Assembly (NCBI RefSeq): GCF_012641515.1
Contig: NZ_JABAHY010000007.1
Span: 1 to 64,000 of the forward strand
Source of the DNA: Nesterenkonia sedimenti
Lineage (GTDB): Bacteria; Actinomycetota; Actinomycetes; Actinomycetales; Micrococcaceae
Length of the DNA stretch: 64,000 bases
Reading direction: 5' to 3'
The notes under the pieces are model-generated. The model was not told the DNA's origin. It ran no database searches and saw only the letters and a list, made by a program, of their open reading frames with translations. The position numbers and the translations under genes were made by a program. Shown in pieces: positions 13,248-31,701 of this stretch (within the stretch, counting starts at the first letter, position 1; each line of letters starts with the position of its first letter).

Positions 13248-13272
13248 GGGGCCGCTCAGGGGCGTAGCAGGC

Positions 13273-14490
13273 TCAGATAACCCGGCGCAGCTTGTAGTAG
13301 GCGGCGGCCCGGGGATCAGCCAGCAGCGGGCCATGGGCTTGGAGCACATTCATCCCGGAGTTGATATTGGCTTCCAGGATCACCGGACCTTTGGGGCTGA
13401 TGATGACATCCCAGCCGATGTACTCAAAGAAGGACAGCCGGCGGGCCGCATCCAGAATCAGCTCTCGAGTTTCCTCCCAGAAGGGCACCTGATGGCCTTC
13501 GATCTGGGCTCCGGAGTCCGGATGCGCACTGAACCAATGCAGGGAATCATCCTCAGGCAGCTGAGTGGCCGCCGAGAGCTTGCCGGTCTCGAGGTCCACA
13601 TTGGCGCTGAACCCACCCTTGGTCCAGTTGTCGATATGGCCGGAACGCACCGAGCCGACCCGCTGCGAGGCTCGGGCGATGAACGGCTGCCAGTCATCGG
13701 TGACATCCGGCATGGTCAGCAGACGGATGGTGTTGGTCGAATGGGGGTTCAGGCCCGCCTGCTCAGGATGCTGGGCTACAGCAGCCTCGAAAAGCAGGGG
13801 CTTGGGGAACTCCCGCACCCAGTCAGCCATCTCCTCGATGCTGGTGGGCTGACCATCCATCCGGTAACCGCCCTCCGGGGTCTTCTTCAGGGAGCGGACC
13901 CCATTGGCCTCGGCACCATGGAGAGGCTTGACGAAGATATGACCGCGCTCATCGAGGGACTGGCTCAGGAACTCAGAGATCTCCAACCGGCCGGCCTCCG
14001 GGAAGGGGTGGACGAACCCGCGGGTGTGCACACCCAGAAGATCGACGACGTCGGACTCCAGTCCCAGCGAGTTCACCAGCAGGAAGAAGGAGAACTTATT
14101 GTCCAGCACCTCCTGCAGATGGGGGCTGACCATCCGCTTGGTGCGCAGATACCGCTGAACGTCATTGATGTAGAGGGAGGGGTCGTTCTCCGGCAGCCCA
14201 TACAGAGTGACCGAACGGGACAGGAAGCCACGCCGCCACCACTCCGGCTTGCGGTTCGACCACTGAGTCTCCCAGCGGAACTCCTTACGCAGGAACAGCC
14301 GGGCAGTATTGAGCTGACGGCGCCGGTAACGAAGAGTCCGCGCAGTACGCTCCGGAACGCCCAGGGGATCCTTGACGTTTTCCACCGCCCGCTGAGCGAA
14401 CCGCTTGACGAAACCGGGTTTGACGAAACCCGGATTGGGGTCGCGGGGAGCGTTTTCGGGCACCTCTGAGGAGCGCGGAGAATCAGCCAT
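13273..14490 (-). CDS. sugar-transfer-associated ATP-grasp protein
   Basis: 405-residue cytosolic protein. It resembles the ATP-grasp family found in exopolysaccharide clusters: DNKFSFFLLVNSLGL, HIFVKPLHGAEANGVRSL (the ATP-binding Lys and loop), FEAAVAQHPEQAGLNPHSTNTIRLLT and the metal-binding end PVILEANINSGMNVLQ with E-x-N intact. The family is thought to ligate an amino acid or other amine to a sugar-linked carboxylate, but the reaction is unproven. The ATG at 14490 is chosen as the start of the conserved part; in-frame starts upstream lack a ribosome site. It is convergent with the preceding cluster and divergent from smc, 91 bp away. Confidence 0.78.
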   Translation of the reverse strand: MADSPRSSEVPENAPRDPNPGFVKPGFVKRFAQRAVENVKDPLGVPERTARTLRYRRRQLNTARLFLRKEFRWETQWSNRKPEWWRRGFLSRSVTLYGLPENDPSLYINDVQRYLRTKRMVSPHLQEVLDNKFSFFLLVNSLGLESDVVDLLGVHTRGFVHPFPEAGRLEISEFLSQSLDERGHIFVKPLHGAEANGVRSLKKTPEGGYRMDGQPTSIEEMADWVREFPKPLLFEAAVAQHPEQAGLNPHSTNTIRLLTMPDVTDDWQPFIARASQRVGSVRSGHIDNWTKGGFSANVDLETGKLSAATQLPEDDSLHWFSAHPDSGAQIEGHQVPFWEETRELILDAARRLSFFEYIGWDVIISPKGPVILEANINSGMNVLQAHGPLLADPRAAAYYKLRRVI

Positions 14491-14581
14491 GGAGGCGATG
14501 CTACCGGGCATCAGGCAGAATAGTGGGGATTGTCCTCGCAGAGCCGATATCTGATCCGTGTAAAGGAGGTGGCCCGCACCG

Positions 14582-17500: not shown

Positions 17501-17917
17501 GGGGGAGAGGGAAAGCTGGAGCTGACTAACCCCGAGGATATGCTCAACACAGGCATCGAAGTCCAGGCTCGGCCCCCGGGGAAGCGGATCCGCCGTCTCT
17601 CACTGCTCTCCGGCGGGGAGCGCTCGCTGACCGCGGTGGCGCTGTTGGTGGCGATCTTCAAAGCCCGGCCCTCTCCCTTCTATGTGATGGACGAGGTGGA
17701 GGCAGCCCTCGATGACACCAACCTCTCCCGCCTGTTGGTGATCTTCGAAGAGCTGCGGGAGAATTCTCAGCTGATCGTCATCACTCACCAGAAACGGACT
17801 ATGGAGATCGCAGACGCACTCTATGGCGTGTCCATGCGCCAGGACGGGTCTACTCGGGTAGTGTCCCAGCGGCTACGCGATACGCAAGAGGCCAAGCCTA
17901 CGAAGGAACCCGTATGA
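14582..17917 (+). CDS. smc: chromosome partition protein SMC (short hinge)
   Basis: 1111-residue condensin ATPase that organises and segregates the chromosome with ScpA/ScpB. Walker A is GPNGSGKSN near residue 33. A long coiled coil runs to about 505, a second one from about 580 to 920, and the C-terminal head has the LSGGERSLTAVALLVA signature and Walker B FYVMDEVEAALDD. The hinge between the coils spans only about 513-575, against roughly 120-150 residues in typical SMCs; the first half appears missing, which also explains the total length being about 80 short. GTG start after AAAGGAGG. Its stop overlaps the next gene by ATGA, so the ATP-grasp island is translated behind it. Confidence 0.93.
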   Translation: MHLKTLTVRGFKSFASATTFEFEPGVTAVVGPNGSGKSNVVDALAWVMGEQGAKSLRGGSMEDVIFAGTAERQPLGRASVSLTIDNSDGALPIDYTEVTISRTMFRSGGSEYTINGTKCRLLDIQELLSDSGLGREMHVIVGQGQLDQILHATPEQRRGFIEEAAGVLKHRRRRERSVRKLESMQTNLERLEDLIGEISRQLAPLGRQAKVARRAQRIQYDLRDALSRIIADDLVAAATALQASSQGEQQDHDAAVRLKAALAEQDARINELSAAAEAQRSQAEKLAGGHHRLSQVQERLRSVASLAAERARSLRSNSTVEFSTGRDPQQLRAQAEEMTQEAETQHAEVLSAQQNLETISQARAETEEQLKAEENLITEQLRAVADRKAGLATLRGRVETAQGRVDAAQARKRRAEQQQENEQISLESSQAERQELEQKLAELETGENSLEEAYRIARRHYEQLRATHDELSAEQRRLEIAVSEYRARISGLETALAAAEETVKLNEPGAAFPLELVQASTDLAESLEKTLEGAVVVDDKDFGQRLVDNGQAAAALALGQAVIRDGEWVAGESTAATLRAQSEEFTNRLQEAEQQLQEVAKKLEASRSEVTAAELKANEASDALQASESAVKTATEQLQRLNKETSRSQERIEAAAKEIAEAETAAADAAEQLQEVSSRLEAAENDELVEEPSTAERDQLAEAASAKRRDEVDARLALRAAEDQHKQLLERAASLRRSAQAEEHRREQAKRAAAIRSERADKAEEIGAEAEEAVGRIESQLAAVQAAKEAAQEAHQQLKAKVAELTEARAVESGELEEVTARLHQAEVRQTELRLALEAAESRAEEELSLTPEYLIEHYGPDQLIPDPEAETDSEEEGEAGVPYIRAEQETRLERARKDLKALGKVNPLALEEHAALEERHTYLQEQLADLKKSRQDLLDIIAEVDSTVHRVFTEAWEDTRVQFERVFGRLFPGGEGKLELTNPEDMLNTGIEVQARPPGKRIRRLSLLSGGERSLTAVALLVAIFKARPSPFYVMDEVEAALDDTNLSRLLVIFEELRENSQLIVITHQKRTMEIADALYGVSMRQDGSTRVVSQRLRDTQEAKPTKEPV

Positions 17918-20745
17918 GACTTTCCATCCCTATCCCAGGCAAACGCCCGGCCACTCTGGCCATCGTTGAGACAGAAGCGATTGCCTACCGCGTCCCCATG
18001 GACCTCACGGCAGAGGAATCTCAGCGGACAGTAGCTCCCTTCAACTACCTCATCACCCTCAAGGCACGTTCCTCGCAGGGAGAGGAATATGTGGGCGTGG
18101 GGGAAGCCCAGCCACGTGCTAATCAGACAGGCGACCTGCACGAACAGTCTTGGCCGTTCCTGGACCGACTGCTGGAAGAGCTGGTGGGCTTCGAGCTCAA
18201 GCTCAACGATCCACTCGAAGATATTCGGCAGTGGGTGGCCTATATGGAGGCTGAAGCCGGAACAGATGAGGAGAACGTCGTCTTCCGAAACCGGGCGACT
18301 GTTATGGGACTGGAGACAGCCCTTATGGACCTCGCTGCCAAGGCCAAGAAAGTAACCCTGGCGGATCTGCTGGGACGGCGGCGGCTGAGCTCATCGGAGA
18401 CCCCTCGTGTGCTCCGGGCCAAGGAAGACTACGATATCGAGGAGTTCTTCGCAGGACTGCCGCGAAACTACCGGGGCCCGGTACGTGTGGTCGGGGGCGA
18501 AACCGTCGACGACGACGTGGCCCATATGCGTAAGGTCACCGAGATCCGCCGCACACAGCGTCCCCGGCTGAACGATGAACCCCTGTGGGTGAACTTCCGA
18601 AGCCGGTACGACTTTGAGACGGCCCAGGACGCCATCCGCCAGATTCACTCGGAATCCGCTGCTGGGCACCTGCCCCAGACCATCATTATCCAGAACCCGA
18701 CCAGCCAGCGGCCTGATCCCGGCGCGCCAGACCTGCAACAGTTCAGTGATTCCCTCAACTCTCTGGGAGAGCAGGGACCGGATATTCACATTCTGCGGCG
18801 CAGCGCAGGTCCCAATGACACCGCGGAGCTCATCAACACTTTGGGCAATAGGCTTCGTGCAATCAACTTGCGTCCGGCCCAACTCGGCGGCATCCTGCGA
18901 ACCCTGGAGACCGCAGAGAAGATCAGCTCCACTGCGCCGGAAGCCAAGCTGCTGTTGACCCAGTCACCTGGAGCCTCTCGAGTCACTCAGATCGTCCACC
19001 GGGACCTCGCTAAGGTTCTGCCGCAACTGACCTGGGCCACCGCCTCGGCTGAGGTCGACAAGAGGTTTCACGTTTCGCGCCGGGCCTCCTCAAAACTGCG
19101 CTCACCCCTTCTGCGCAGGGGAACCGGTCTCATTCCCGACTATAAGGACCTCATCTCCCGCTCCCGGGCTCGTGTGCGGCACCCCAAACCAAATTCAACG
19201 GCCCAGTTCGGGGACACTCCGCCGAACACCTACAGCGATGTGGACTACATCGCCCCCATCGGGTCATACGCCGTCCACGGGCATATCGTGGAGCGGGAAG
19301 CGCTGGCCCGCGGGCTCAACAGTTGGCGCTTCACCAAGTCCAGCATTGTGGTCAGCGATGATCACGGCAAGAAGCTCCCGTTCCGCACCACCCGTTGGCC
19401 CAAATCGGGTGTGGTGGCCTCTTCGGTGGCACGCCATAAGGAAGCCACGCGCATCCTGTTGAAGCGAGCCGGCTGCCCAGTACCCGAGGGGCGTACCTTT
19501 CACGGCAACGACCAGAGCCTCGCCCTTCAGTACGCAGCCCGTATCGGATACCCCGTGGTCCTGAAGCCTGCCGAGGGATCCATGGGTGTCGGCGTGATGG
19601 CCAATATCCGCTCTGAAGAGGAACTGGTTCGTGCCTTGGAGCTCTTCTCCACCACAGCCCACGGCAATAACGAGTTCATCGTCGAAAAGCACATCAACGG
19701 CGGGGACTATCGCATCATGGTGATCGGCGACGAGGTTGCGGCGGCAGTTGAGCGGATTCCCGCCAATATCACCGGTGACGGTCAACAGACTGTTGCGCAG
19801 CTGATCATCGATAAGAACATGGCCAGGCGGGAGAACTCCCACCTGGGCCCGTTGAAGATCAAATGGACCCCCGCGGTGGAATACGAGCTCGAGAAGCAGG
19901 GGCTATCCATCAATAGCATTGTGCCAGAAGGAAAGCGCATTTATCTCCTGAGCACCAACAACCTCACCCAGGGCGGCGACTCCATCGAGATCTTGGATGA
20001 TCTCCACCCCAGCATCAAGGAGGCCTGCGTCAAAGCGGTTAAAGCGGTGCCCGGGATGGGGTACTGCGGTGTCGACTTCCTGCTGGAAGACCACACGAAA
20101 CCGCTGGATGAACAGGATGCAGCCATCTGCGAGCTCAACGCTATGGCAGCACTGCCGGTGGCGGAGTATCCCATGTACGGCACTCCGCGTCGGCTCTCAG
20201 AGCGCTTCATCCTTGAATGCGCTAAGGACTTTGGCCTTGAAGTATGGCCTGAGCGGGCCGAACAGCTTCACCTGAAACTTGTTATCCGCGGAGGCATTAC
20301 AGGCGTGGGCTACAGGCGATGGTTCGGACGCCGCGCCGAGCGCTCCGGACTTCGCGGCTGGATCCGCAGTACAGGGGAACGAGAGGCTGAGGCGGTCATC
20401 TCCGGATCGGTGGAAGCGGTGACGGCGATGGCCACTCTTGCAGTCCTGGGACCGCCAAAGTCTGCACCGGAATCTGTAAAGAGCACGCATCTGGGTGCTG
20501 CCCCAACAGAGGAAGGCTTCACTGTCCTGGATGAAGATCAGGACCTAGTCGGCGCTAAGGTTGGCGAACCCGGCTCCGGCAGTGATGTAGAGGACTTCGA
20601 AGAGGTCTTCGAGACGCTCAACTCCGAAGATCAGCGTCAGGAACATCTTGAGGAATATGCTCCCAACGAGGCTGAACAGGTCAGCGCTGAGGAACTTGAG
20701 GACCGAGCAGAGGAAGCAGAGCATGACGAATCCAGCAGAGCTTGA
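17914..20745 (+). CDS. enolase-like/ATP-grasp/acylphosphatase-like fusion protein
   Basis: 943 residues, three domains. Residues 1-390 look like a dipeptide-epimerase/muconate-cycloisomerase-type enolase fold (GVGEAQPRANQTGDLHEQ, later RPAQLGGIL). Expected catalytic positions are changed: the metal ligand region reads VNFRSR at 226-231, the EQP-like site QNP at 260-262, the DES-like site RRS at 295-297, and no K-x-K is seen. Residues about 440-775 are a complete cyanophycin-synthetase-type ATP-grasp with K551, GDYRIMVIGDEVAAAVER, NITGDGQQTV and E740-x-N742. Residues 785-875 resemble acylphosphatase (GVGYRRWFGRRAERSGLRGW), keeping the Arg but with Ser819 where the catalytic Asn belongs. An acidic tail follows. 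It overlaps smc by ATGA and the next gene by 23 bp. Likely an amide ligase; substrate unknown. Confidence 0.8.
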   Translation: MRLSIPIPGKRPATLAIVETEAIAYRVPMDLTAEESQRTVAPFNYLITLKARSSQGEEYVGVGEAQPRANQTGDLHEQSWPFLDRLLEELVGFELKLNDPLEDIRQWVAYMEAEAGTDEENVVFRNRATVMGLETALMDLAAKAKKVTLADLLGRRRLSSSETPRVLRAKEDYDIEEFFAGLPRNYRGPVRVVGGETVDDDVAHMRKVTEIRRTQRPRLNDEPLWVNFRSRYDFETAQDAIRQIHSESAAGHLPQTIIIQNPTSQRPDPGAPDLQQFSDSLNSLGEQGPDIHILRRSAGPNDTAELINTLGNRLRAINLRPAQLGGILRTLETAEKISSTAPEAKLLLTQSPGASRVTQIVHRDLAKVLPQLTWATASAEVDKRFHVSRRASSKLRSPLLRRGTGLIPDYKDLISRSRARVRHPKPNSTAQFGDTPPNTYSDVDYIAPIGSYAVHGHIVEREALARGLNSWRFTKSSIVVSDDHGKKLPFRTTRWPKSGVVASSVARHKEATRILLKRAGCPVPEGRTFHGNDQSLALQYAARIGYPVVLKPAEGSMGVGVMANIRSEEELVRALELFSTTAHGNNEFIVEKHINGGDYRIMVIGDEVAAAVERIPANITGDGQQTVAQLIIDKNMARRENSHLGPLKIKWTPAVEYELEKQGLSINSIVPEGKRIYLLSTNNLTQGGDSIEILDDLHPSIKEACVKAVKAVPGMGYCGVDFLLEDHTKPLDEQDAAICELNAMAALPVAEYPMYGTPRRLSERFILECAKDFGLEVWPERAEQLHLKLVIRGGITGVGYRRWFGRRAERSGLRGWIRSTGEREAEAVISGSVEAVTAMATLAVLGPPKSAPESVKSTHLGAAPTEEGFTVLDEDQDLVGAKVGEPGSGSDVEDFEEVFETLNSEDQRQEHLEEYAPNEAEQVSAEELEDRAEEAEHDESSRA

Positions 20746-21952
20746 GACCCTCGAACCGGCTCCCATTCACCCGGTTAACACCGGGTATCGGGGAGTTCTG
20801 CGGTCCTGCCCAGCAGAGTTGGCTGACGGCTGGCTGGTCCATGCCGCGGCGCTTCATAGGGGCCAGAGCACTCTACTCTTTCCTGGGCAGGCATTGATGA
20901 CATATACCGGTGACGACCCCGCGCATGGCGCCGCCTTCGCACATGGGGTGCCCAATACCACGTGGCTGTCCACTGCGACCCTGGTCCAAGACAAACGGAT
21001 GACTCGCGATCAATTGGAAGCAGCCGGAATTCGGGTTCCTCGCGGACGCAGCTTTTCCATTCGGCGCGGCGCCCCCTATGCCATGGCCTTTGCCCATGAG
21101 CTGGGATACCCCGTGACTCTGCGGCCAATGATCGGCGAGTCCACAATCGAGGTCTTCGAAAGCATCGCCGATGAGGAAGAACTCTCCCAAGCCATCCGGT
21201 ACTACGGTCGTGTGCCTACTGGGAGGCCTCATTTCACCACTTCCTCCTATGCATTCACCCAGATTCTGACTCCCAAGACCAGTACCAGCACTCGCGCCCG
21301 GGGTACCTATCGGTATCTGGTCGAGGAGAGCCCCGAGGGAGACTATGTTCGGCTGCTCACTGTAGATGGCGAACTCGTTTCAGCCGTTCACCTGCAGGAG
21401 GGCCCCTGGTCCGCGACAGCGCAGGCACGGGAAATCGTTGGGCAGGTCCACGGAGATATCGTGCGTCTCCTAGAGACTTGCCACCAGGCGATACCGGGAA
21501 TGTCAGTCGGGATGATTGATATCAAGGTGCCTGATGCTACTTCCGCCTTTGGCACGGACAACATAGCTACAGTGGTCGCAGTTTCTGAACGCCCCTGGCT
21601 ACATGTACAGCACCGGGTAAACCCCACTGCGATGGCGGAGCTTGCGGACAAGGTGCTACAGGCTGGGAGCTCGGATAGTTCATCGCAAGCTGCCTCAGAA
21701 TGGGCAGAAGTGACTGTGGACTTTGCCTTCGACGGCCTTTCCCAAGTCGACCGCGACTGCAGTGTACTGGAAACCGTCGCTGCCTCTTCAGGGCTCCATA
21801 TCGAACTAGGCACCCGGGATGCGGTGGCAGGCAAGGTCCACGGCAGTCTCACCGGTGGGGTGGGCGAAGTGGCGCTCTTTCTGGAGCTTGCCGTCTCTGG
21901 TGATCTTCTTCCCGAACCGGCCATGGCGGTGGAGGTAAGTGTTGAACATTAA
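20723..21952 (+). CDS. degenerate ATP-grasp-like partner protein
   Basis: 409 residues. The layout follows the ligase upstream: IRVPRGRSF, then LGYPVTLRPMIGESTIEVF where the ATP-binding Lys is Arg and the glycine-rich loop is gone, GDYVRLLTVDGELVSAV, IPGMSVGMIDIKV, and AVSERPWL in place of the metal-binding E-x-N. The last 80 residues have the strand-helix rhythm of the acylphosphatase-like module. I infer a catalytically dead subunit or substrate adaptor for the 17914-20745 protein. The ATG at 20723 is inside the preceding gene, with AGGAAG before it, which implies coupled synthesis and perhaps a 1:1 complex. It overlaps the next gene by 14 bp. Confidence 0.7.
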   Translation: MTNPAELETLEPAPIHPVNTGYRGVLRSCPAELADGWLVHAAALHRGQSTLLFPGQALMTYTGDDPAHGAAFAHGVPNTTWLSTATLVQDKRMTRDQLEAAGIRVPRGRSFSIRRGAPYAMAFAHELGYPVTLRPMIGESTIEVFESIADEEELSQAIRYYGRVPTGRPHFTTSSYAFTQILTPKTSTSTRARGTYRYLVEESPEGDYVRLLTVDGELVSAVHLQEGPWSATAQAREIVGQVHGDIVRLLETCHQAIPGMSVGMIDIKVPDATSAFGTDNIATVVAVSERPWLHVQHRVNPTAMAELADKVLQAGSSDSSSQAASEWAEVTVDFAFDGLSQVDRDCSVLETVAASSGLHIELGTRDAVAGKVHGSLTGGVGEVALFLELAVSGDLLPEPAMAVEVSVEH

Positions 21953-23267
21953 TACGTACCCCATCGCCAAACATTTGGAAGAGTTTGGGAAACGCCCCCT
22001 AAGTACAATTCTGCTTGCAAGGGATTCTCTCGCATATGGACTTGACCTCATGCGGACAGCGGCTGCCGATTTTGTTGCCTGGGATACGGAAGGGAGGTCA
22101 CTTGCATTCTCCCGTACGGGGTCATCCTTGACTCAGCGAGTGGCAGGGCCGATTACGAAGAATAAGCACTCGACCCGTCTCGTGCTTCAACGAGCGGGCA
22201 TTCCTGTGCCCAAGGGCAGAAGCTTCAGGTTTTCTGATCTTCTTTGGGCAGAGGAGTATGCAGAGTCTCTGGGGTATCCAGTAGTCGTGAAACCTCTGAA
22301 CGGCATGGAGGGCAAGGGCGTCGTAACTGATGTTATGTCCAAGGCTCAGCTCGAATGGGCGTTCTCCCATGTAGAGGAATCAGCCTATGGAGGCGGTGAC
22401 ATCCTCGTCGAAGAGCAAATTCGGGGGGAAGCATACCGTTTCCTGGTCATCAGGGACAGAGTCGTGTCCGTTCTCTATAAGCGCCGGGGGCGTATTGTCG
22501 GGGATGGGTCGAAGAGTGTAGGCGCACTGATTGAGGAGAAGCAGGCTTTCCGGCGGGCAAACCCACACTTGCTATCACGTCCTCTGAAAGTTACTGAGGC
22601 GACGAATCAGCTCCTCTCCCAGCAGGGCTATGGTTTGGAATCAGTACCGGCAGAAGGCGAAGAAGTTCTCATCACCTATAGTTCGAACACACATCAAGGG
22701 GGCGAACATGCCCAGGTCATCAGTCAGGTGCATAGTTCGTACCTTGAGGCAAGTGTGGAAGCAGTGAAGGCGATTCCAGGACTCAAATTCGCTGGAGTGG
22801 ATTTTCTCATCGAAGATCCGACTCAACCCATCGAGACGCAGGGCGCGGCCATCTGCGAAGTAAATTCAGTTCCGGGTGCAGATACGCATGAATATCCGCT
22901 GATTGGTGAGCCTCGGCCAGTAATCAGTGAACTTTTACTTCATTCGGCAAGTGAATCAGGGGTGCGTCTTCGCAACTCCCCCGCTACCGACGTTGACGTT
23001 GACGTTGAGATCGTGGGTCGGTTCAAAGATCAGACCTACGTGGAGTGGTTAAATGAGAAGGCTAAGTCCCTCGGAGTGACCGGAGAAGTCGCGAGAATAA
23101 CGTCCACTCGTGCTTCAGGGGCGTGGTTCGGCTCCCCGCATATGGTCAGCATCCTTGTTTCGTTCGCCCACCTCGGCCTGCGAGGCAGCCCTGTGAAGAG
23201 TGTGGGAGTGGCCCACCGCGGCGGAACTTCAACGTCGGTGACTACTACGGAGGCGGCGGAACTATGA
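21939..23267 (+). CDS. ATP-grasp ligase with acylphosphatase-like C-terminus (copy 1)
   Basis: 442 residues. An N-terminal lobe (INTYPIAKHLEEFG, LLARDSLAYGL) leads into a full ATP-grasp: GYPVVVKPLNGMEGKGVVTD with K118, ILVEEQIRGEAYRFLVIRD, GDGSKSVGALIEEK, SSNTHQGGEHAQV, and AICEVNS with E307 and N309. Residues about 350-425 resemble acylphosphatase (VGRFKDQTYVEWLNEKAKSL), but the catalytic Arg and Asn are absent. It is a close paralogue of the protein at 29376-30656. GTG start 3 bp after GGAGG; a TTG one codon later is also well placed. The DNA is visibly less G+C-rich than the core genes, a sign of transfer. It overlaps the next gene by ATGA. Probable carboxylate-amine ligase; substrate unknown. 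Confidence 0.78.
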   Translation: MLNINTYPIAKHLEEFGKRPLSTILLARDSLAYGLDLMRTAAADFVAWDTEGRSLAFSRTGSSLTQRVAGPITKNKHSTRLVLQRAGIPVPKGRSFRFSDLLWAEEYAESLGYPVVVKPLNGMEGKGVVTDVMSKAQLEWAFSHVEESAYGGGDILVEEQIRGEAYRFLVIRDRVVSVLYKRRGRIVGDGSKSVGALIEEKQAFRRANPHLLSRPLKVTEATNQLLSQQGYGLESVPAEGEEVLITYSSNTHQGGEHAQVISQVHSSYLEASVEAVKAIPGLKFAGVDFLIEDPTQPIETQGAAICEVNSVPGADTHEYPLIGEPRPVISELLLHSASESGVRLRNSPATDVDVDVEIVGRFKDQTYVEWLNEKAKSLGVTGEVARITSTRASGAWFGSPHMVSILVSFAHLGLRGSPVKSVGVAHRGGTSTSVTTTEAAEL

Positions 23268-24319
23268 GTCCTCTTGACACGCAGAACCCTGCCGCAGAGG
23301 ATGCGCCGAGCTACGATACGTGGCTCGTCGCATCCCACTTGATCAATTCTGGGTTCAACGTCAACTTTCTGCCAGGCGGCGTGGTGTACGTGGATCCCCT
23401 ACAGTCTGATCTGTCCTTTATGGGCTTGAGTGCATCGACAAGCACCTTCGGCGGAATGCTGCTTTCGAAGAAGAGGCCCGGCATTTGGTCGCTTCTAGGC
23501 TCGGAGGGGCTACCTGTTCCGGCCTGGAAGTCATTCCGTGTCACAGGTACTAAGGCCGCTTCCGCCTTCGCGGCTCGTATCGGGTACCCAGTGGAGCTTG
23601 GAAGGGAAAAGGGTGAACGCACCTGGACTGCCAGTTCGGAGACAGAGCTGTTGGAAGCGATGACCTCGCTCCGTGCTGGCCCTAAGTCACCTCACCGTCG
23701 GGCAATTGTGCGGAAGAAAAGGCCCGGAGGCACCTTCGACTTGCTGTTCCTGGGGGACAAGTTGCTGCTGGGCGGGCTCCGGGGCCGGCTGCCGCAGATC
23801 ATTATGCCTGAGACTGTGCATGAAGGGTTCGTCAGCCTTGGTGCTGCGGCACTCCGGGCAGTTCCGGGATTGGAGTTTGGTGTCGTCCGTATTGAAGCCG
23901 ATGATGTCCAGAGCACCCCAAACGGTCAAGATGCACAGGTCGTGACAGTGAGGTCTTCGCCTAAGCTGCAGGACTTCGGAGGAGCCCCCATCGAAACGCA
24001 CCTCGAGGTGGCCCGTACAGTTGTCAATCACGAGCTGAAACTAAACGGAATCGAGCCCCAGCGAGGTGGCGTCAGGCACGCTGTGGCCGTCGAATGTACC
24101 GGTCTTGTCGCAGCCGAGACTTTTTGGCGCTCATTCTCGGAGGTATTAGTACCCCCACGATATGAGGTCCTGGGGCCAGTGCAGTACCCCGCCGAGGAAG
24201 TCCTTCATATTGAGCTGCGCGCTGAGGGGGAGAATCTCGCTCTTGCTGCAATTAAAGCGATCGCCGGCGTGGGACATGAAAACCGTCGGGCACCGATGGT
24301 TTCGCTCACTCATTTATAA
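23264..24319 (+). CDS. degenerate ATP-grasp-like partner protein (copy 1)
   Basis: 351 residues. The order of elements copies the ligase before it: a short N-lobe, LPVPAWKSFRV, RIGYPVELGREKGERTW (no ATP-binding Lys or Gly loop), RRAIVRKKRPGGTFDLLFLGD, LGAAALRAVPGLEFGVVRI, and VTVRSSPKL where the ligases have E-x-N. The central GDG...IEE segment is missing. The last 75 residues again look like an acylphosphatase-like module. It is similar in plan to the protein at 30649-31701. I infer a non-catalytic partner of the 21939-23267 ligase. ATG at 23264 follows GGAGG and overlaps the upstream stop (ATGA). Lower G+C than core genes. Confidence 0.68.
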   Translation: MSPLDTQNPAAEDAPSYDTWLVASHLINSGFNVNFLPGGVVYVDPLQSDLSFMGLSASTSTFGGMLLSKKRPGIWSLLGSEGLPVPAWKSFRVTGTKAASAFAARIGYPVELGREKGERTWTASSETELLEAMTSLRAGPKSPHRRAIVRKKRPGGTFDLLFLGDKLLLGGLRGRLPQIIMPETVHEGFVSLGAAALRAVPGLEFGVVRIEADDVQSTPNGQDAQVVTVRSSPKLQDFGGAPIETHLEVARTVVNHELKLNGIEPQRGGVRHAVAVECTGLVAAETFWRSFSEVLVPPRYEVLGPVQYPAEEVLHIELRAEGENLALAAIKAIAGVGHENRRAPMVSLTHL

Positions 24320-24412
24320 GCCGGCACCATAACATTGGTTGGATTGTTCCCCAGTGCATGAGGAACTCGGGGGAGGGAACACATCAGTGGCGAAATGAGT
24401 TGACCAAATGGT

Positions 24413-25666
24413 GTGACTAGAGATGACGCTGGTGCGAAGACTCCCATCCCTTCCGAGCTGAAGGTGATGATAGTTTCGGCTTTCATCATCGCCATCGGCT
24501 TCGGCATCGTGTCACCGATCCTGCCGCAGTACGCCTCAGACTTCGGCGTCTCAGCTATGGCGGTTTCCGCGGTTGTGTCAGCATTCGGACTCTTCCGGCT
24601 AATTTTCGCACCCGCCTCTGGCAAGCTGACACACGTCCTGGGGGAGACTCCGGTCTACGTGATTGGCCTCCTGATTGTTGCTGCCTCGATGATTGCTACA
24701 GCCTATGCTCCCACCTACGAGCTTCTCCTTTTGTTCCGTGCGCTGGGCGGCATCGGGTCGACGTTCTTCACCGTCGCCGCTATGACCTTCCTCGCCCGGA
24801 AATCCCCGCCCCACATCAGGGGCCGGGTTATGGGCGCATATGCCTCAGCCTTTCTCATCGGTAACGTCGCCGGACCCGTGCTGGGCTCTGCACTGCTAAT
24901 CTTCGGCCAGCGGGTCCCGTTCCTCGTCTACGGGGCGGCGCTGGTCGCTGCAGCAGGGGTCGTGTTCTTCATACTCCGCAAGTCCCGTCTTGAGGACCGG
25001 AAAACCAAGGATAATCGCGAGCGAGCATCAGTCAAGGAAGCGTTAGGTAACGGTAGCTATAGGGCTGCCCTGGCCTCTGGCTTTGCGAACGGGTGGGCAA
25101 CCTTCGGACTACGAAACTCCGTGGTTCCACTCTTTGCTGCATCAGCCTTCGTCGGTACCAGCTGGTTCATCGACTCTGGCCAGCTTGCAGGCATTGCCCT
25201 GGCATGTTTTGCCTTGGGCAACGTTGCTATAGTGCTTACTCTCGCCAAACGCTCCGACTCATGGGGGCGGCGCCCGCCCATCATCGTTGGACTGCTTACC
25301 GCAGGAGTCGCCACAGGAGCCCTAGGGTTCTCCCCTGAGCCGTGGGTGCTGTTGCTTCTCAGCCTCATTGGCGGTGCTGGTACCGGCCTGATTGTGCCTG
25401 CCCAGCAGGCGGCCCTGGGGGACATTGTGGGGGAGGGGCGCAACGGTGGTACCGTCATTTCCACTTTTCAAATGGTGCAGGACCTAGGCGGCATCATTGG
25501 CCCGCTCCTGGCGGGGCTTCTGGTAGACCACGGCGGGTACACTTGGGCCTTTGGCCTCGCTGGGCTGATTTTGATGCTCGCAGCAGGGGCTTGGGTGGTT
25601 GCGCCGGAAACGTTGGTCAGAAAGAACCGCAACTTTGGTAATGGGAAAAACTTGGAAGAGTCTTAA
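24413..25666 (+). CDS. MFS transporter (drug/metabolite exporter type)
   Basis: 417-residue inner-membrane protein with about twelve hydrophobic segments in two halves joined by a charged loop (KSRLEDRKTKDNRER) near residue 190. The start IAIGFGIVSPILPQYASDFG and the following GLFRLIFAPASGKL match the DHA1-type drug:H+ antiporters, as does the loop motif PPHIRGRVMGAYAS. It lies 93 bp after the ATP-grasp pair, in the same orientation and with similar base use, so it may export their product or an intermediate. GTG start at 24413, without a strong ribosome site. The stop codon TAA lies in the TTAA target duplicated by the IS element that follows. Confidence 0.82.
   Translation: MTRDDAGAKTPIPSELKVMIVSAFIIAIGFGIVSPILPQYASDFGVSAMAVSAVVSAFGLFRLIFAPASGKLTHVLGETPVYVIGLLIVAASMIATAYAPTYELLLLFRALGGIGSTFFTVAAMTFLARKSPPHIRGRVMGAYASAFLIGNVAGPVLGSALLIFGQRVPFLVYGAALVAAAGVVFFILRKSRLEDRKTKDNRERASVKEALGNGSYRAALASGFANGWATFGLRNSVVPLFAASAFVGTSWFIDSGQLAGIALACFALGNVAIVLTLAKRSDSWGRRPPIIVGLLTAGVATGALGFSPEPWVLLLLSLIGGAGTGLIVPAQQAALGDIVGEGRNGGTVISTFQMVQDLGGIIGPLLAGLLVDHGGYTWAFGLAGLILMLAAGAWVVAPETLVRKNRNFGNGKNLEES
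25663..25666. repeat. IS target-site duplication, left copy (TTAA)
   Basis: TTAA directly before the left end of the IS1380-family element; the other copy is at 27340-27343. It includes the stop codon of the MFS gene (TAA at 25664-25666). Removing the element and one copy would restore a single TTAA. Confidence 0.85.
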
Positions 25667-25689
25667 CCTCCTTCTTTCATGGGACACCG
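25667..25689 (+). repeat. IS1380-family left terminal inverted repeat
   Basis: Starts CCTCCTTCTTTCATGGGACA. It pairs with the right end at 27317-27339, with mismatches at positions 4-6 and a two-base offset after CATG. Confidence 0.82.
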
Positions 25690-25828
25690 TTGAGCGGAGC
25701 TGAGGGCCGGCTGGTGAGCTGATTCAGGCCAAGAAGAAGGTCAGGGCAGGGGTGTGGCCCGAGGGTGCCGTCTCGGGTGGCCGGTTCTCCAGGTTTTCCT
25801 CAGTCGTTGGGGCAGATGGGCTGGATCG

Positions 25829-27262
25829 TCATGTGAAGGCCTCGCGGATTGCGATGTAGCCGTGGGCGACCTCGGTGGCCCATCGCCAGCCAGCATCGAC
25901 GCGTAGCCGGATCTGCCTGGCGCCGCGGGTGATCCTGGCGGCGGTGTGCAGGATCATGTACCGGAACGCAGCGATCTCTGCCCGACCGATGGCCGGGTGG
26001 TGCTGGTAGGCAATCAGTTTGGTCCAGGTGATCAGGTCGTTGGCGATCATTACTACCTGCAGCCATGCTAGGTTCTCGGCGAATCCTTCGGCGGGGAATC
26101 GGGCGAGGCCGGTGGCTTTGGCCTGCCGGATCCGGTCTTCGACCCTGGCATGCTGACGATGGCGCAGCTCCAGGCCCTGGATTTTGTGGTCCACGGTTTC
26201 TGGGTCGGTGTCGGTGATGAACGCGGTGACTCGGTGCCCGTCGGCGTCAGTGAAGGACAGCTGAGCCCCAGGATGCGGGCGCTCCTTGCGCAGGATCAGC
26301 CGGGTCCCGGCTGGCCAGCTGGTGATGTTCACGTAGTCAGTGGCATCAACCACCCACGCGCCCTCCCGGATTGAGCTGTCGGTGTTGATCGCTGCCTGCC
26401 ACAGATGGGCGGGGATCTGATCGACCACCTGTTGGACGGGCTGGGTGATGAAGTAGCCGAAAGAGAACTCGACCCCGAGATCCCGGCAGTGGTCAGCGAA
26501 CGCATGGGAAGCTCCAGCACTGTCGCTGCGCACCAGCACACCAGGACCGCCTTCAACACCAGGACGTACATGTTCTGGCAGGGCTTCGACGGCCTGATCA
26601 ATCTCAGTGATGTGATCAGCAGCAGTGTTCGCCCCGGCGTTGCCAGGCCGCAGGATCCCGGCCAGGGCCTCACCGCCGCTGATTTCTGGCCGGTCCAGAA
26701 ACGCCAACAGCGGATGGAAACCGAAGGAGCGTTTCCAGGTGGCGGCGGCGTTCTCTTTCTCTGAGTGGGCAATGCTGATGGTGGCATCAACATCGATCAC
26801 CAAAGGCCCAGGATCCTCAGCACCAAGGTCAGGCCCGGCACCAGCATCCCAGGCCCTGGCGCGCGCGTCAGTACGCGCTGTCCGGATCGCCGGCAGCCTC
26901 TGCTCAGTGACGCGGTCCAGTACTCGCCAGGTGGTGGGCATCGAGGCTACCGGTCCGAAAACATCCTGGCGATCAGTCAACGTCTGGATTCCTGAGATGT
27001 TGGTGGCCCCGTCGGCGACCGCGGCCGCCAAATCAGTGAGCACCCGACCCGGGGCGTGCACCGGCAACCCCTTATAGGAGTCCAGAAGCGACTCCGAAAG
27101 CCCGGCCACCAGGCCAGTGCGCTCGGCAAGTTCTCGCAGCATCCCGACCCCGGCATGCGACACGACTCCCTCCCCGTCGGCGGAGACTTTCATGCGGCCA
27201 GTACCCGGGATACGCTTCACTTTGAGAGTGCCCTCCGACTTGGGGTTTTGGAGCTTCGACAA
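25829..27262 (-). CDS. IS1380-family transposase
   Basis: 477-residue DDE transposase. The first acidic residue is in LVIDVDATI near 165, followed by the family hallmark TWKRSFGFHPLLAFLD. The second is in VLVRSDSAGAS near 250, and the glutamate is in VEDRIRQAKATGLARFP near 390. The reading frame is open from end to end, so the element may still be active. The frame starts at TTG (27262) with GGGAG directly before it; a GTG 14 codons in is an alternative. It is the only gene of the element. Confidence 0.93.
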   Translation of the reverse strand: MSKLQNPKSEGTLKVKRIPGTGRMKVSADGEGVVSHAGVGMLRELAERTGLVAGLSESLLDSYKGLPVHAPGRVLTDLAAAVADGATNISGIQTLTDRQDVFGPVASMPTTWRVLDRVTEQRLPAIRTARTDARARAWDAGAGPDLGAEDPGPLVIDVDATISIAHSEKENAAATWKRSFGFHPLLAFLDRPEISGGEALAGILRPGNAGANTAADHITEIDQAVEALPEHVRPGVEGGPGVLVRSDSAGASHAFADHCRDLGVEFSFGYFITQPVQQVVDQIPAHLWQAAINTDSSIREGAWVVDATDYVNITSWPAGTRLILRKERPHPGAQLSFTDADGHRVTAFITDTDPETVDHKIQGLELRHRQHARVEDRIRQAKATGLARFPAEGFAENLAWLQVVMIANDLITWTKLIAYQHHPAIGRAEIAAFRYMILHTAARITRGARQIRLRVDAGWRWATEVAHGYIAIREAFT

Positions 27263-27316
27263 CTCCCATCATCCCAGGTCAGAGCGGCACTCTCGTCTAT
27301 CTATGGCCTCTCAAAC

Positions 27317-27339
27317 CCTCGTGTCATGAAAGACCCAGG
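27317..27339 (-). repeat. IS1380-family right terminal inverted repeat
   Basis: Read inward on the reverse strand it starts CCTGGGTCTTTCATGACAC and matches the left end at 25667-25689. Confidence 0.82.
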
Positions 27340-28755
27340 TTAATCCCGGACTCCAAACCCTAAACAGATCACTCCGTCGTACGGCCCGACTAGCATGGGG
27401 GCCTCCCCCAAAGCATGCGTGACTCTTTCATGCCACTGTCGTATCGAGTCGGGATCCCCTGCGACGGTCAGTCGGGGTGGATCATCACTTGTGTGCAGTC
27501 TCCCGCTAACTCCAGTTCGCCGATAGGCTACGCGGAGTCGTTGCTGATTGAGGGGCAGCTTCGCCGTGGTAGCTGATATTGAATACTCTTGACGCAGAGG
27601 TAAGCGATTCTCAGGGAGAGGTGTTAGCTCAACAGCGCTTGAAGTTCCATTAAGCAAAGGCTGTAGAACATCTGGCCTGTGAAAGGTCAGTGTTTTGATT
27701 TTTTGGTCCTGGGGTCGCGGCGTATCCGGGAAGAAGTGATCGATAATCGCCTTAGGGAGGTCGCGACCAGTACCGCGAGTTGGGTACATGTTCACTCCAA
27801 TGTGAGCCCGTGAATTGAGCTCGATAATGACAAAGTCATTATCCTGTTCAGATTGAGGATCTCGGTTCCAAATGACGTCGACGGCGGCCGCAGGCAGGCC
27901 TGGAATCGCGGCTATGGCCCGGATAGAAGCTTCCCTGAGGTGTTCTGGCACTAGTTCAGTAACGTCTTCGACGTCTCCTCCAGCGCTGGCGTTTGCTTTT
28001 TCCCGTAGCTGAATATGGGCGCCTTCTGCTGGAATTGAGGAGAGCGTCATTTCTCGCCGATTTAGCATCGAACGGACCTCATAGTCCTTTCTGATGAGCC
28101 CCGAAGCGAGGAACGGGTTCTTTCTTCGTTCCTGGTTCTTGTCAGCAATCAGTTGGCTTACACTGCGTGTGCCGTCCCCGATTACGTGGGCTGGGATGCG
28201 GCGGACAGCTGCTACGAATTTGTCTCCCACAACGTAGATTCGGTAGTCGTCGCCAGAATGGTGGCGTTCAAGGACGACTTTCTGTACGCGCAGTTCATCT
28301 ACAAGGTGCGTATAACATTCCTCAAGTTGTGATGCGTCTTGAATATTCGCGAAGACTCCTCGGCCACGCGATCCGTGGGATGGTTTGAGGACCACAGGAT
28401 AACCCAGTTGCCCAGCGCGATCGGCTAATGCTCCGGCAGTCGTTTCCGATGTCCGGAGCTCTTGGGACTTCGGCACGGGTACCCCGGCAGCACGTAGAGA
28501 CGCGGTCGTCGCGTATTTCGATTCCACAGTGTTGTAGGCGTTGCGCGAGATTTCACTCGAAGCTCGTGAGCGGTCGAAGCGAACGGTGCGGACGCCGTCA
28601 GAAAGTTCGAGCTTCCTGCCATTGGGCGCCAGGAGCTTTACGCGCAGGCCGCGCCGCCACGCTTCAAGAGCGATTGTATGACTTGATAACACCCCTGAGC
28701 CGAAGGATGAACTGACCACGTCCGGGGTGAAATACTCCGGCCATTCGCGCTCCAT
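27340..28755 (-). CDS. ATP-grasp ligase, cyanophycin-synthetase-like (unpaired)
   Basis: 471 residues. N-lobe SSHTIALEAWRRGLRVKLLA, then ATP-grasp: LGYPVVLKPSHGSRGRGVFA, VVLERHHSGDDYRIYVVGD, HVIGDGTRSVSQLIADKNQ, GGDVEDVTELVPEHLRE, IPGLPAAAVDVIW and FVIIELNSRAHIGVNMYP with E-x-N intact. The C-terminal 110 residues differ from the paralogues; only a weak acylphosphatase-like pattern (GVSGRLHTSDDPPRLTVAG) is seen. Unlike the other ligases it is on the reverse strand and has no degenerate partner. ATG preceded by GGAGT. Its TAA stop is the complement of the right-hand TTAA of the IS. Base use is less G+C-rich than core genes. Likely amide-bond ligase; substrate unknown. Confidence 0.78.
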   Translation of the reverse strand: MEREWPEYFTPDVVSSSFGSGVLSSHTIALEAWRRGLRVKLLAPNGRKLELSDGVRTVRFDRSRASSEISRNAYNTVESKYATTASLRAAGVPVPKSQELRTSETTAGALADRAGQLGYPVVLKPSHGSRGRGVFANIQDASQLEECYTHLVDELRVQKVVLERHHSGDDYRIYVVGDKFVAAVRRIPAHVIGDGTRSVSQLIADKNQERRKNPFLASGLIRKDYEVRSMLNRREMTLSSIPAEGAHIQLREKANASAGGDVEDVTELVPEHLREASIRAIAAIPGLPAAAVDVIWNRDPQSEQDNDFVIIELNSRAHIGVNMYPTRGTGRDLPKAIIDHFFPDTPRPQDQKIKTLTFHRPDVLQPLLNGTSSAVELTPLPENRLPLRQEYSISATTAKLPLNQQRLRVAYRRTGVSGRLHTSDDPPRLTVAGDPDSIRQWHERVTHALGEAPMLVGPYDGVICLGFGVRD

Positions 28756-29375
28756 AGCGCACTCCTTTTAAAATCATTGGGTCCCTGCAGGGAAGGCCAC
28801 GACAGGCCTCGTATCTGGATGTCAGCCTATCTTTTCCCCTGTCATATTGGGCGCGCCCCGCCGGGAGTCGATGGCAGCCGGAATATGGTGTGGGTGAACT
28901 ACCGGATCTTTAGTTGTCATTCAGCAGACTGATGCACGGTGTAAGAGGCTCTTTTTTGCGTTTTCGTGACCAATGGCGACGTACCTGAAGGACTCGACTT
29001 GGCTTTGGCACATGCGGTTTTGCACCTGCGTGTCGAGTCCAGGGTTTCGGCACCTTCGAATATCTCGACAGGCCTTCATCGCCGCCTACCTCATCAGTCG
29101 CGTTTCGGCCCCACCCACTTTTCAGTCGTGCCATACGAGGGTCCCGCTCTTGGTGGCCATTGCCGTCGTCGGAATGGGTGAGCTTATCGATTCCGCGCAG
29201 CGTCCAGGTGTCTCGCCGGCTTCGGGGAGCCGCTCACTGGCGGTCCGCGGGTTGTCCGGGCTCATTCGATTAGCGCCGCCACGGGAACTCGAACTGCAGT
29301 CCCGGAGAGTCTGCTGTACAGGAACACTCTGTGAATAACTAGCCGGCGTCCAGGAACAATGTGCATCGTGTACGA
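28756..29375. other. intergenic region without a convincing gene (divergent promoters)
   Basis: About 620 bases between two divergent ATP-grasp genes. Both promoters should lie here. The part next to the reverse-strand gene is A+T-rich for this genome. Open frames exist (for example 28973-29338 on the plus strand, 121 codons), but they have Cys/Arg-rich composition, no recognisable motif, and no ribosome site. It may be decayed coding DNA or a long leader. I see no terminal repeats and no tRNA. Confidence 0.55.
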
Positions 29376-30656
29376 ATGCTGTCAGCGAATGTTTATCCCA
29401 TCGCGAAACCGCTCCGGCAGCTCGGCCAGACAGAGCTAACCAATTCCCTGCTGGAACGAGAGTGCCTGGCGTACGGGCTCACCACCCTGCGCACATCACG
29501 GCAGAGTTTCATTGCTGAAGACTCCCAGGGGCGTCGTCTGCCCTTCAACAAGAGCGGCACTGTGCTCAGCTCCCGCCCGGCTGCCCCGTTGACCATGGAT
29601 AAGCACTCCACCAGGATGCTGCTCCAGCAGGTTGGAGTTCCTGCCCCGAAAGGGCGGCTGTTCTCCCAGGAGAGGTTCGCTGAGGCTGCATCCTATGCCG
29701 AGGAGATCGGCTATCCCGTCGTCGTGAAGCCGCTGCGGGGCACCCATGGGCGAGGGGTCGTCACCGGAATCTCGGATGAGAAGGAACTGGCTTGGGCCTT
29801 CGATAGTCTCGCGAAATCTGCGCATGCACGCGACGATGTCATTCTGGAAGAACACATCGAGGGAGAGGCCTATCGGATTATCGTGCTTGGAGACGAAGTA
29901 GTCTCGGCACTGATCAGCCGACGAGGTGCCGTCACCGGCGATGGTGAGAAAACGGTTAGGGAGCTTATCGAGGAACGACAGCAACAGCGGCTGTTGAACC
30001 CCCATCTGATGGCACGACCCATTCGAAGGGGGAGCCGGCTGACCCACCTGTTGGCCAGACAAGACGTCACTCTCGATTCCGTCCTGGAGCCCGGCCGGAC
30101 CGTAGAGATCACCTATGGTTCGAATACCAGCCAGGGTGGTGAACACGCTCAGGTCCTAGACCGTATGCACCCATCGATCCTTGAGGCCAGTGTGGAGTCG
30201 GTCAAGGCCCTACCCGGACTCGGGTTCGGAGGTGTTGACTTCATCATTTCCGATATTGAGAAACCTCTCGACCAGCAGCGGGCCGCGATCTGTGAGATCA
30301 ACTCAATGCCTTCAGTGGATTCACATGAGTACCCCCTTTACGGGGAGCCCATTTCTGTGCCGCGGAAAATGGTGGAGGCCTCCGCCGAGGCTGCAGGAAT
30401 AAGCCTCCGTGAATATAACCCTCATTTGTCAGTCCACGCTGAAATAGACGCCACTGATAGGAACCCCCGCTACCGGAGGTGGCTGCGACGACAGGCAATG
30501 GATCTCGGCCTCGACTGCCGGCTTCGTCCCATCGGGAGCAGAAGAATTAAAGTCGACCTTCAGGGTGGAGCAGAACCTGTCGCAGCATGGCTGGCTTTGA
30601 GTATCCACAGCCCCTACGGTCTGGATCCCAAGAAAGTGGAAGTGATTCATGCCTGA
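29376..30656 (+). CDS. ATP-grasp ligase with acylphosphatase-like C-terminus (copy 2)
   Basis: 426 residues, a clear paralogue of the protein at 21939-23267. Both have YPIAK near the start, KHSTR before the GVPAPKGR segment, GYPVVVKPLRGTHGRGVVTG with the Lys at residue 118 in both, SNTSQGGEHAQV, and AICEINSMPSVDSHEYPL carrying E-x-N. A degenerate acylphosphatase-like domain ends it (YRRWLRRQAMDLGLD). ATG 29376 is chosen because it aligns exactly with the paralogue's start; an in-frame GTG at 29361 has an AGGA five bases upstream and could be used instead. It overlaps the next gene by 8 bp. It is more G+C-rich than copy 1. Probable carboxylate-amine ligase. Confidence 0.78.
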   Translation: MLSANVYPIAKPLRQLGQTELTNSLLERECLAYGLTTLRTSRQSFIAEDSQGRRLPFNKSGTVLSSRPAAPLTMDKHSTRMLLQQVGVPAPKGRLFSQERFAEAASYAEEIGYPVVVKPLRGTHGRGVVTGISDEKELAWAFDSLAKSAHARDDVILEEHIEGEAYRIIVLGDEVVSALISRRGAVTGDGEKTVRELIEERQQQRLLNPHLMARPIRRGSRLTHLLARQDVTLDSVLEPGRTVEITYGSNTSQGGEHAQVLDRMHPSILEASVESVKALPGLGFGGVDFIISDIEKPLDQQRAAICEINSMPSVDSHEYPLYGEPISVPRKMVEASAEAAGISLREYNPHLSVHAEIDATDRNPRYRRWLRRQAMDLGLDCRLRPIGSRRIKVDLQGGAEPVAAWLALSIHSPYGLDPKKVEVIHA

Positions 30657-31701
30657 CACGAAGAAGGCGAAATCCTTGACGAATCCTGCGTCGTTGAACA
30701 CCGGCCAGTACGATGCTTGGTGCTTGCGAACTGCGATGCTGGCAAGGGGCCTTGCAACCACGAGCATGCCCGGAGACATGGTGTTTGCCCGCGTGGGGGG
30801 AGAGGTTGCCTTGGCCTACAAACACCTCGGCTCATATGGCACCACCTACGCCGGGATGGGGCAGGCGCGGTCCCTGCCCCGGACTTGGATGACCGTGGAC
30901 GCTTCGGGACTGCCTGTCCCTCGATTCCGAACCGTTCCGAAGAATGCGGGCGGAAAAGCGGTGCTGTTCGCCCGGTTGGCCGGGCTACCAGTGCTAGTCT
31001 CTTCGCAGTCCGGAAGTCATCGACGAGTTGCGGAGAAGCCGGCAGCGGTTCGCGAAGCAGTCACTGAACTCAACTCAAAGCTTGAGGAGTCCTTACTAGT
31101 CTCCACCACACCCGGACACCAGATAGTGCGGATACTGGTGCGGGGTGGAGCCGTATTGGCGGTTGCGGGTGAGAGACGTAAGGAAGAGCTCTCCCTGAAC
31201 GATCTGGATTCGGGCCTCCAAGAGCTTGCGATTCAAGCGGTTGAAGCGATGCCGGGTCTGGATATGGCCAGTGTGACTCTGGCAGTAGCCACACTGGAGA
31301 GTGCCGAGGGCGCGATCCTTGAGAGAGTCAACCACCATCCTCATCTGCGTGAATTTTCTCGAGGGTCACGGCGGGAAGCCCAGCGGCTTGCAGAACGTTT
31401 CGTGACGGATGCAGCCGAGGAACGCGGCTTCAGCCTTCCACCTGCCCAGGAGTCTCGGGCTCTTCGAATACGGTTCACCGGGGCCGCCGCCCCTGAACGA
31501 CTGGGCCTGGGCATCAACGAGTTTGCTGACAGCTTGGGGCTAACTCGCCCGGATGGCGATGCCCGGATCATTCCAGACGGGGCAGAGCTGAACATCGAGG
31601 GGCGTCCCAGTGACATCGCCATGCTGGTCACCCGCGCCGGTATTGGGCTGGCCGATGGAGAGTCCGCCCACATGGTGGAGACCTTTGACATGGCGGAGTA
31701 G
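30649..31701 (+). CDS. degenerate ATP-grasp-like partner protein (copy 2)
   Basis: 350 residues, equivalent in position and plan to the 23264-24319 protein. It shows LPVPRFRTVP, LAGLPVLVSSQSGSHRRV where the ATP-binding Lys and Gly loop should be, QIVRILVRGGAVLAVAGERR, LAIQAVEAMPGLDMASVTL and AILERVNHHPHL in place of the E-x-N turn. A terminal acylphosphatase-like segment starts at about 275. The core GDG...IEE segment is absent, so ATP binding is unlikely. Its ATG overlaps the ligase stop by 8 bp, which suggests a heteromeric complex. It is the last gene of the island, followed by a strong terminator. Confidence 0.68.
   Translation: MPDTKKAKSLTNPASLNTGQYDAWCLRTAMLARGLATTSMPGDMVFARVGGEVALAYKHLGSYGTTYAGMGQARSLPRTWMTVDASGLPVPRFRTVPKNAGGKAVLFARLAGLPVLVSSQSGSHRRVAEKPAAVREAVTELNSKLEESLLVSTTPGHQIVRILVRGGAVLAVAGERRKEELSLNDLDSGLQELAIQAVEAMPGLDMASVTLAVATLESAEGAILERVNHHPHLREFSRGSRREAQRLAERFVTDAAEERGFSLPPAQESRALRIRFTGAAAPERLGLGINEFADSLGLTRPDGDARIIPDGAELNIEGRPSDIAMLVTRAGIGLADGESAHMVETFDMAE

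Follow-up and report, generated by a model that had tools for sequence, protein, structure and literature searches.

A locus of active-type and degenerate ATP-grasp proteins next to smc in Nesterenkonia sedimenti and its possible role in surface-glycopolymer decoration

The window analyzed here is a stretch of 64,000 nucleotides from Nesterenkonia sedimenti (contig NZ_JABAHY010000007.1, positions 1 to 64,000 of the forward strand). Its genes of interest lie between smc, which ends at position 17917, and amt (31812-33062, reverse strand), and comprise seven genes for ATP-grasp proteins, named A to G, a gene for a transporter of the major facilitator superfamily (MFS) and an IS1380-family transposase gene. 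On the forward strand, gene A (17914..20745), which has an ATGA overlap with smc, is followed by genes B (20723..21952), C (21939..23267) and D (23264..24319, ATGA overlap with C), the MFS gene (24413..25666), and genes F (29361..30656) and G (30649..31701, 8 bp overlap with F). The transposase gene (25829..27262) and gene E (27340..28755) are located on the reverse strand. The overlaps of reading frames (ATGA or 8-23 bp) reported in an earlier, sequence-based description of this island (the original prediction) were confirmed, and the assignment of the proteins to one branch of CphA-like ATP-grasp amide ligases was supported. The seven ATP-grasp genes of that description are also real, but they do not encode equal enzymes: A, C, E and F keep the catalytic residues, whereas B, D and G are degenerate.

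The protein encoded by gene A consists of an enolase-superfamily domain (residues ~14-425), a CphA-type ATP-grasp domain (~450-775) and an acylphosphatase domain (~784-870). Lys220, Lys261, Arg309, Asp431 and Glu450 (CphA1 positions) are kept in A, C, E and F and in all 18 A-type rows of a residue comparison of 21 rows, the remaining three being paralogs. The ATP-grasp (G) domain of CphA1/CphA2 resembles these proteins in its fold, its ATP and Mg residues and Arg309. A to G differ from CphA1/CphA2 in that the Mur-ligase half and Arg458 are absent, that A carries the additional N- and C-terminal domains, that a degenerate partner adjoins, and that sugar-polymer genes are found in the neighborhood. 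The island had been predicted not to encode a cyanophycin synthetase, and this holds: CphA models gave 191-235 bits versus cut-offs of 850-877, and these sub-cut-off scores together with the residues rule out that identity. The accompanying claim that Mur-ligase domains are lacking is correct for the A-G island, in which the domain scan gave no Mur-ligase match for any of the seven proteins; it does not extend to the clusters of some relatives, which carry Mur ligases.

B, D and G have neither the central lobe nor the ExN motif, which led us to reject the reading of seven equal enzymes. Each of these three genes directly follows an active-type gene with which its reading frame overlaps, so that B is the partner of A, D of C and G of F; gene E has no adjoining degenerate partner in frame order. 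The protein encoded by gene B has the ATP-grasp fold without the catalytic ExN and the central segment, and the position corresponding to N452 is Ser or Ala in all 20 sequences compared. The C-terminal domain of B is acylphosphatase-like in appearance, and the C-terminus of C is degenerate acylphosphatase-like.

Gene B was detected in 13 of 30 Nesterenkonia genomes, at 15 loci of which one is broken, and at all 15 it adjoins an active ATP-grasp of the A kind, which may or may not carry the enolase-type part. The 19 B loci outside this genus belong to Ruania and Propionibacteriaceae (4), Halomonas, Vreelandella and Sulfitobacter (6) and an actinobacterial family termed f38 (9). In the resulting 34 loci, which include the near-identical L057 and L060, B is always located next to A or an A-like ligase. 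The module is conserved as a set in other genomes, both actinobacterial and proteobacterial, which was one of the points on which the original prediction had made itself dependent. For ten named non-Nesterenkonia genomes the adjacency is not an independent test, because these genomes were found through A. Duplicate loci (L046, L047, L048, L050, L051, L056 and L063) were removed before counting, and the examined loci leave out two further phylum-sample matches and the weak match L064. Gene calling in the retrieved loci relied on a custom script, which overlooked at least one genuine B gene (N. salmonea, recovered by tblastn) and one A gene (L058); domain labels beyond the Pfam-checked proteins come from iterative searches. 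In three genomes (G005, G026 and G028) the A-like protein has no enolase-type part and is located after B. Furthermore, of 159 proteins carrying ATP-grasps from this group, 17 at 13 loci contain an active followed by a degenerate label within a single protein, "degenerate" being here the label of the iterative search rather than of a residue check per protein. At one Nesterenkonia locus (L118, G016:C1:1885000-1904999, in an assembly that is 62% complete) the module and smc appear split into short frames, due to either sequencing error or decay.

The enolase-superfamily domain of gene A has Val and Arg at the positions of the general bases (Lys189 and Lys315 in L112 numbering) and Asn, Gln and Arg at those of the metal ligands. 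An active epimerase in gene A is ruled out by these missing ligands and bases. The sixth-strand Lys is replaced by Arg in all 18 A-type rows. Paralogous enolase-type domains of relatives are closest to dipeptide epimerases and, like these, keep metal ligands and bases (intact in eight of nine distinct rows); the domain in A differs from dipeptide epimerases in that it is degenerate and part of a ligase fusion. Halomonas, Vreelandella and Sulfitobacter mostly encode the enolase-type domain in a separate neighboring gene, and it was degenerate in the four rows checked. As for the acylphosphatase domain of gene A, Arg801 is kept and Ser819 is found where the catalytic Asn is expected, leaving the catalytic Arg/Asn pair incomplete. 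Both residues are kept in 11 of 21 A3 rows and in 30 of 58 domain rows (gene A of N. sedimenti being counted twice in the 58).

A cluster of polymer genes is located upstream of smc. The most constant of them is a gene for a sugar-transfer-associated ATP-grasp (AGST; 13273..14511, reverse strand; PF14397, 116 bits). The others, all on the forward strand, encode a divergent ATP-grasp-type protein (6551..7660) that has DxD where ExN is expected and groups with the ATP-grasp family without a Pfam match; an ABC-2 type membrane transporter, the probable polymer exporter (7778..8710; PF01061, 50 bits); an ABC transporter ATPase (8720..9775; PF00005, 75 bits); a probable glycosyltransferase (9795..11000) with weak, sub-cut-off matches to Glyco_trans_1_4 and Glycos_transf_1; an asparagine-synthase-like ligase (10997..12712; PF00733, 30 bits); and a small protein (12705..13247), a longer relative of which (L038:12046-13245) gave a sub-threshold glycosyltransferase-2 match. 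The asparagine-synthase-like ligase contains the SGGxDS loop, a motif seen in all six checked members of its family, and the Pfam scan gave no glutaminase domain for it.

In 28 of 29 genomes, AGST and B share a contig and lie no more than 15 kb apart; the AGST label is based on Pfam in Nesterenkonia and on iterative searches elsewhere. One Halomonas protein with this label (L057:5529-6689) had no Pfam match, and its neighbors also carry the label. Strong PF14397 matches (E <= 1e-30) were obtained for 14 of the 30 Nesterenkonia genomes, and 13 of these 14 have B, the fourteenth (G025) being a fragmented assembly with only a partial match. B was found in none of the 16 genomes without a strong match. 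The chance of this co-occurrence is ~1e-7 if genomes are assumed to be independent, which they are not. The genes at 9795-14511 recur with A-B away from smc, for instance twice in genome G002. Within 15 kb of B, the asparagine-synthase-like family was found in 17 of 34 rows; near B, the small-gene family was found in 15 and a UDP-sugar dehydrogenase in six (these 34-row linkage counts are without N. salmonea and count the broken G016 gene twice). At locus L052 the whole set is co-directional and includes an ABC-2 transporter and a UDP-sugar dehydrogenase, and in both Ruania loci a segment resembling the 6551 protein is located C-terminal to an active ATP-grasp. The island had been considered separate from the polymer cluster. 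This view was not supported, because genes of both recur together; A to G and the upstream polymer genes probably belong to one module. Between the two module copies of G002, four related large proteins of 901-974 residues are encoded (L037, 6250-19334); the two that were scanned each have two kinds of glycosyltransferase domain.

Clusters of relatives contain additional genes. An Asp/Glu racemase homolog is located between AGST and A in all six f38 loci examined for it, and further homologs occur close to B in N. haasae and at each of the two Ruania loci (one was identified by Pfam scan, the others by homology). In f38, Halomonas and four Nesterenkonia genomes, PGA_cap, which is the domain of the capsule protein for poly-gamma-glutamate, occurs either as a fusion with these ATP-grasps or next to B. 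Mur ligases are found in clusters of Halomonas, Sulfitobacter and Ruania, and TupA-like ATP-grasps in those of Halomonas, f38 and N. haasae (L041, L057 and L113). The label used in our survey mixes PGA_cap and Mur-ligase matches, and the cases quoted are only those checked with Pfam. Racemase, PGA_cap, Mur ligase and TupA-like proteins are the kinds of enzymes expected for chains of D/L-glutamate or aspartate on a sugar polymer. The Mur-type ligase of one Ruania protein (L053:16994-19909) is fused to an intact enolase-superfamily domain.

The order smc-MFS-amt was found in all eight Nesterenkonia genomes examined among the 17 without full-length B. Because the MFS gene holds this position in these genomes, it is probably an ancestral backbone gene outside the module; it is near B in only seven of 34 rows. 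Six of the eight genomes have a homolog of the 6551 gene in the polymer locus at smc, and proteins encoded upstream of smc in the three of them that were scanned included pyruvyl- and rhamnosyltransferases, a UDP-GlcNAc 2-epimerase and an acyltransferase-SGNH protein. Since genomes without A-B have other polymer genes and the 6551-like gene at this site, the surroundings of smc in Nesterenkonia look like a variable surface-polymer locus (L123-L130). The G+C content is 58-59% for A-D and E-G and 63-65% for smc and the flanks. As a mark of foreign origin this decides nothing, because the likely backbone MFS gene has 60% and the genes at 9795-14511 have 64%.

In our interpretation, the polymer cluster upstream of smc and the genes that separate smc from amt constitute a single system, namely a surface-glycopolymer locus equipped with a module for amide ligation; we assign this reading a probability of about 0.5. 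It builds on the domains, residues, pairing and AGST linkage described above. By analogy with teichuronopeptide synthesis, there is an even chance that the module decorates an exported glycopolymer of the cell surface with amino acids or peptides that are acidic and in part of D configuration. Glycosyltransferases would build the sugar polymer and the ABC-2 transporter would export it, as families and gene order suggest. A, C, E and F, in keeping with their residues, would convert a carboxylate to an acyl phosphate and couple it to an amine, so that the polymer or a precursor of it would receive amino acids, most likely acidic ones, either as attached residues or assembled into short peptides. 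According to passages of PMC9427784, CphA G domains dimerise and Glu215 of one protomer touches the chain bound by the other. On this basis we propose, as a model, that A and B form a ligase/pseudo-ligase dimer. The pairing of A, C and F with B, D and G in gene order, and the fusions, are consistent with such complexes, in which the degenerate ATP-grasp would replace one half of the CphA-type dimer and may hold the growing chain. The catalytically dead enolase-superfamily domain of A probably binds substrate or organises the complex, and the copies that are intact in relatives would act as epimerases on residues of the growing peptide. The acylphosphatase domain could clear misactivated acyl phosphates and so act in editing, a speculative role given the Ser in place of the catalytic Asn in A of N. 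sedimenti.

Several observations weigh against this interpretation. Arg458, which contacts the aspartate alpha-carboxylate in CphA, is kept in none of the 18 A-type rows (the position is Asp in C, Gly in E and Asp in F), Asn394, the contact to the beta-carboxylate, is kept in seven of 18, and Arg323 is replaced by Lys in C and by Ser in F. Because these residues are only partly kept, aspartate may not be the substrate of these ligases. PGA_cap, racemase, TupA-like and CapB-type genes are absent among the scanned island and polymer-cluster proteins of N. sedimenti; only the clusters of relatives were found to contain a racemase, a TupA-like or a CapB-type Mur-ligase gene. The PGA_cap genes of N. 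sedimenti are located on two other contigs, no module gene was found in the surroundings of one of the two, and the only UDP-sugar dehydrogenase gene of the genome is also on another contig. In N. sphaerica, the sole exception to the AGST linkage, AGST and A-B are on different contigs. In stretches of limited length, ABC-2 was present within 15 kb of B in only seven of 34 rows, and the asparagine-synthase-like, small-gene and glycosyltransferase families in none of the six proteobacterial rows; the polymer genes vary between lineages. Finally, the module is rare: B-type proteins were found in eight of 394 genomes of a class sample and three of 396 of a phylum sample, with four candidates scored per genome, and gene B gave no match in a plasmid collection at E 1e-8.

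Among the alternatives, it is unlikely that the ATP-grasps make the polymer backbone itself, a poly-amino-acid capsule that the sugar genes merely anchor. CphA is a backbone polymerase, and PGA_cap and Mur-ligase domains accompany these ATP-grasps in some relatives, yet AGST is the most constant linked gene and PGA_cap is not encoded in the N. sedimenti island. The original prediction favored a small, diffusible product, either a peptide or a metabolite decorated with amino acids, with the MFS transporter as its exporter. ATP-grasp ligases often make small peptides and the MFS gene does lie within the island, but its synteny makes this transporter an unlikely product exporter, and the constancy of AGST also argues against a small product, which we now regard as quite improbable. 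A poor candidate is an intracellular compatible solute, for instance an amidated dipeptide resembling N-acetylglutaminylglutamine amide; the latter is produced by an asparagine-synthase-like protein and a CphA-like ATP-grasp (asnO, ngg). The likeness lies in this combination of enzymes, the asparagine-synthase-like gene being near B in half of the rows; A, C, E and F match the model of the amide synthetase (TIGR03103), and several module hosts belong to salt-tolerant groups. The scores, however, are 111-152 bits versus a cut-off of 569, the GNAT family is absent among the matches listed for A to G, and genes for a solute would not be expected to be linked with sugar-transfer genes, PGA_cap and racemase. 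Modification of proteins or ribosomal peptides, as by RimK or graspetide enzymes, has general ATP-grasp precedent and is very improbable, since the constant partners are sugar-polymer genes and none of the annotated loci, in which genes below ~50-70 residues were not called, showed a recognisable gene for a precursor peptide.

The preferred reading of a glycopolymer locus can be extended to a more specific proposal, which is possible though doubtful as a whole. The module would be an ATP-grasp-based synthase that equips a surface glycopolymer with acidic peptide chains of D/L residues; an asymmetric dimer of an active three-domain ligase and a pseudo-ligase would replace the CphA dimer, and epimerase-derived and acylphosphatase domains would control stereochemistry and fidelity. 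It would then be of the kind suggested as poly-glutamate synthetase for alkaliphiles without pgs or cap. Sections of a 2013 review (PMC3815933) describe a short-chain L-poly-glutamate wall polymer in Bacillus halodurans, which lacks pgs and cap operons, and suggest an unidentified ATP-grasp synthetase for it; passages of PMC4431377 show that the general idea of linked ATP-grasp ligases acting in the synthesis of teichuronopeptide and O-antigen already exists. The teichuronopeptide of B. halodurans C-125 (poly-gamma-L-glutamate and polyglucuronate; TupA) resembles the proposed product as a peptide-glycan surface polymer, and TupA-like ATP-grasps and UDP-sugar dehydrogenase occur in some relatives' clusters. 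It differs in that no TupA-like gene is present among the scanned island proteins and in that the hosts here are actinobacteria and proteobacteria. The poly-gamma-glutamate synthase CapBCA/PgsBCA shares PGA_cap and Mur-ligase domains with the module of some relatives; here, however, the ligases are ATP-grasps, to which PGA_cap is fused. The searched passages on graspetides (PMC8939145) did not mention cyanophycin, acylphosphatase, enolase, mandelate, Nesterenkonia or Halomonas. Neither the enolase-type/ATP-grasp/acylphosphatase fusion nor the ligase/pseudo-ligase pair was named in the titles and abstract beginnings of the matches listed, which did not cover the 2009 amidoligase survey by Iyer and colleagues. 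The module offers candidates for the suggested poly-glutamate synthetase, in genera with cultured strains and as gene pairs open to deletion or expression, and ligase/pseudo-ligase pairs that are conserved between actinobacteria and proteobacteria. An editing function also becomes testable, because the acylphosphatase domain is attached to a class of enzymes that makes acyl-phosphate intermediates.

The IS1380-family transposase gene (NF033539, 305 bits) is a later insertion. The element is bounded by an imperfect 19-nt inverted repeat (25663-25681 / 27325-27343) that overlaps the end of the MFS gene and the 3′ end of gene E, and one further IS1380-family site is present on another contig of the same genome. 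Outside the locus, this genome also contains further CphA-like ATP-grasp genes of the same group (G000:C23, L027 10858-12896; and G000:C62:90382-91503, L026 12383-13504), one of which adjoins a short partner-like gene.
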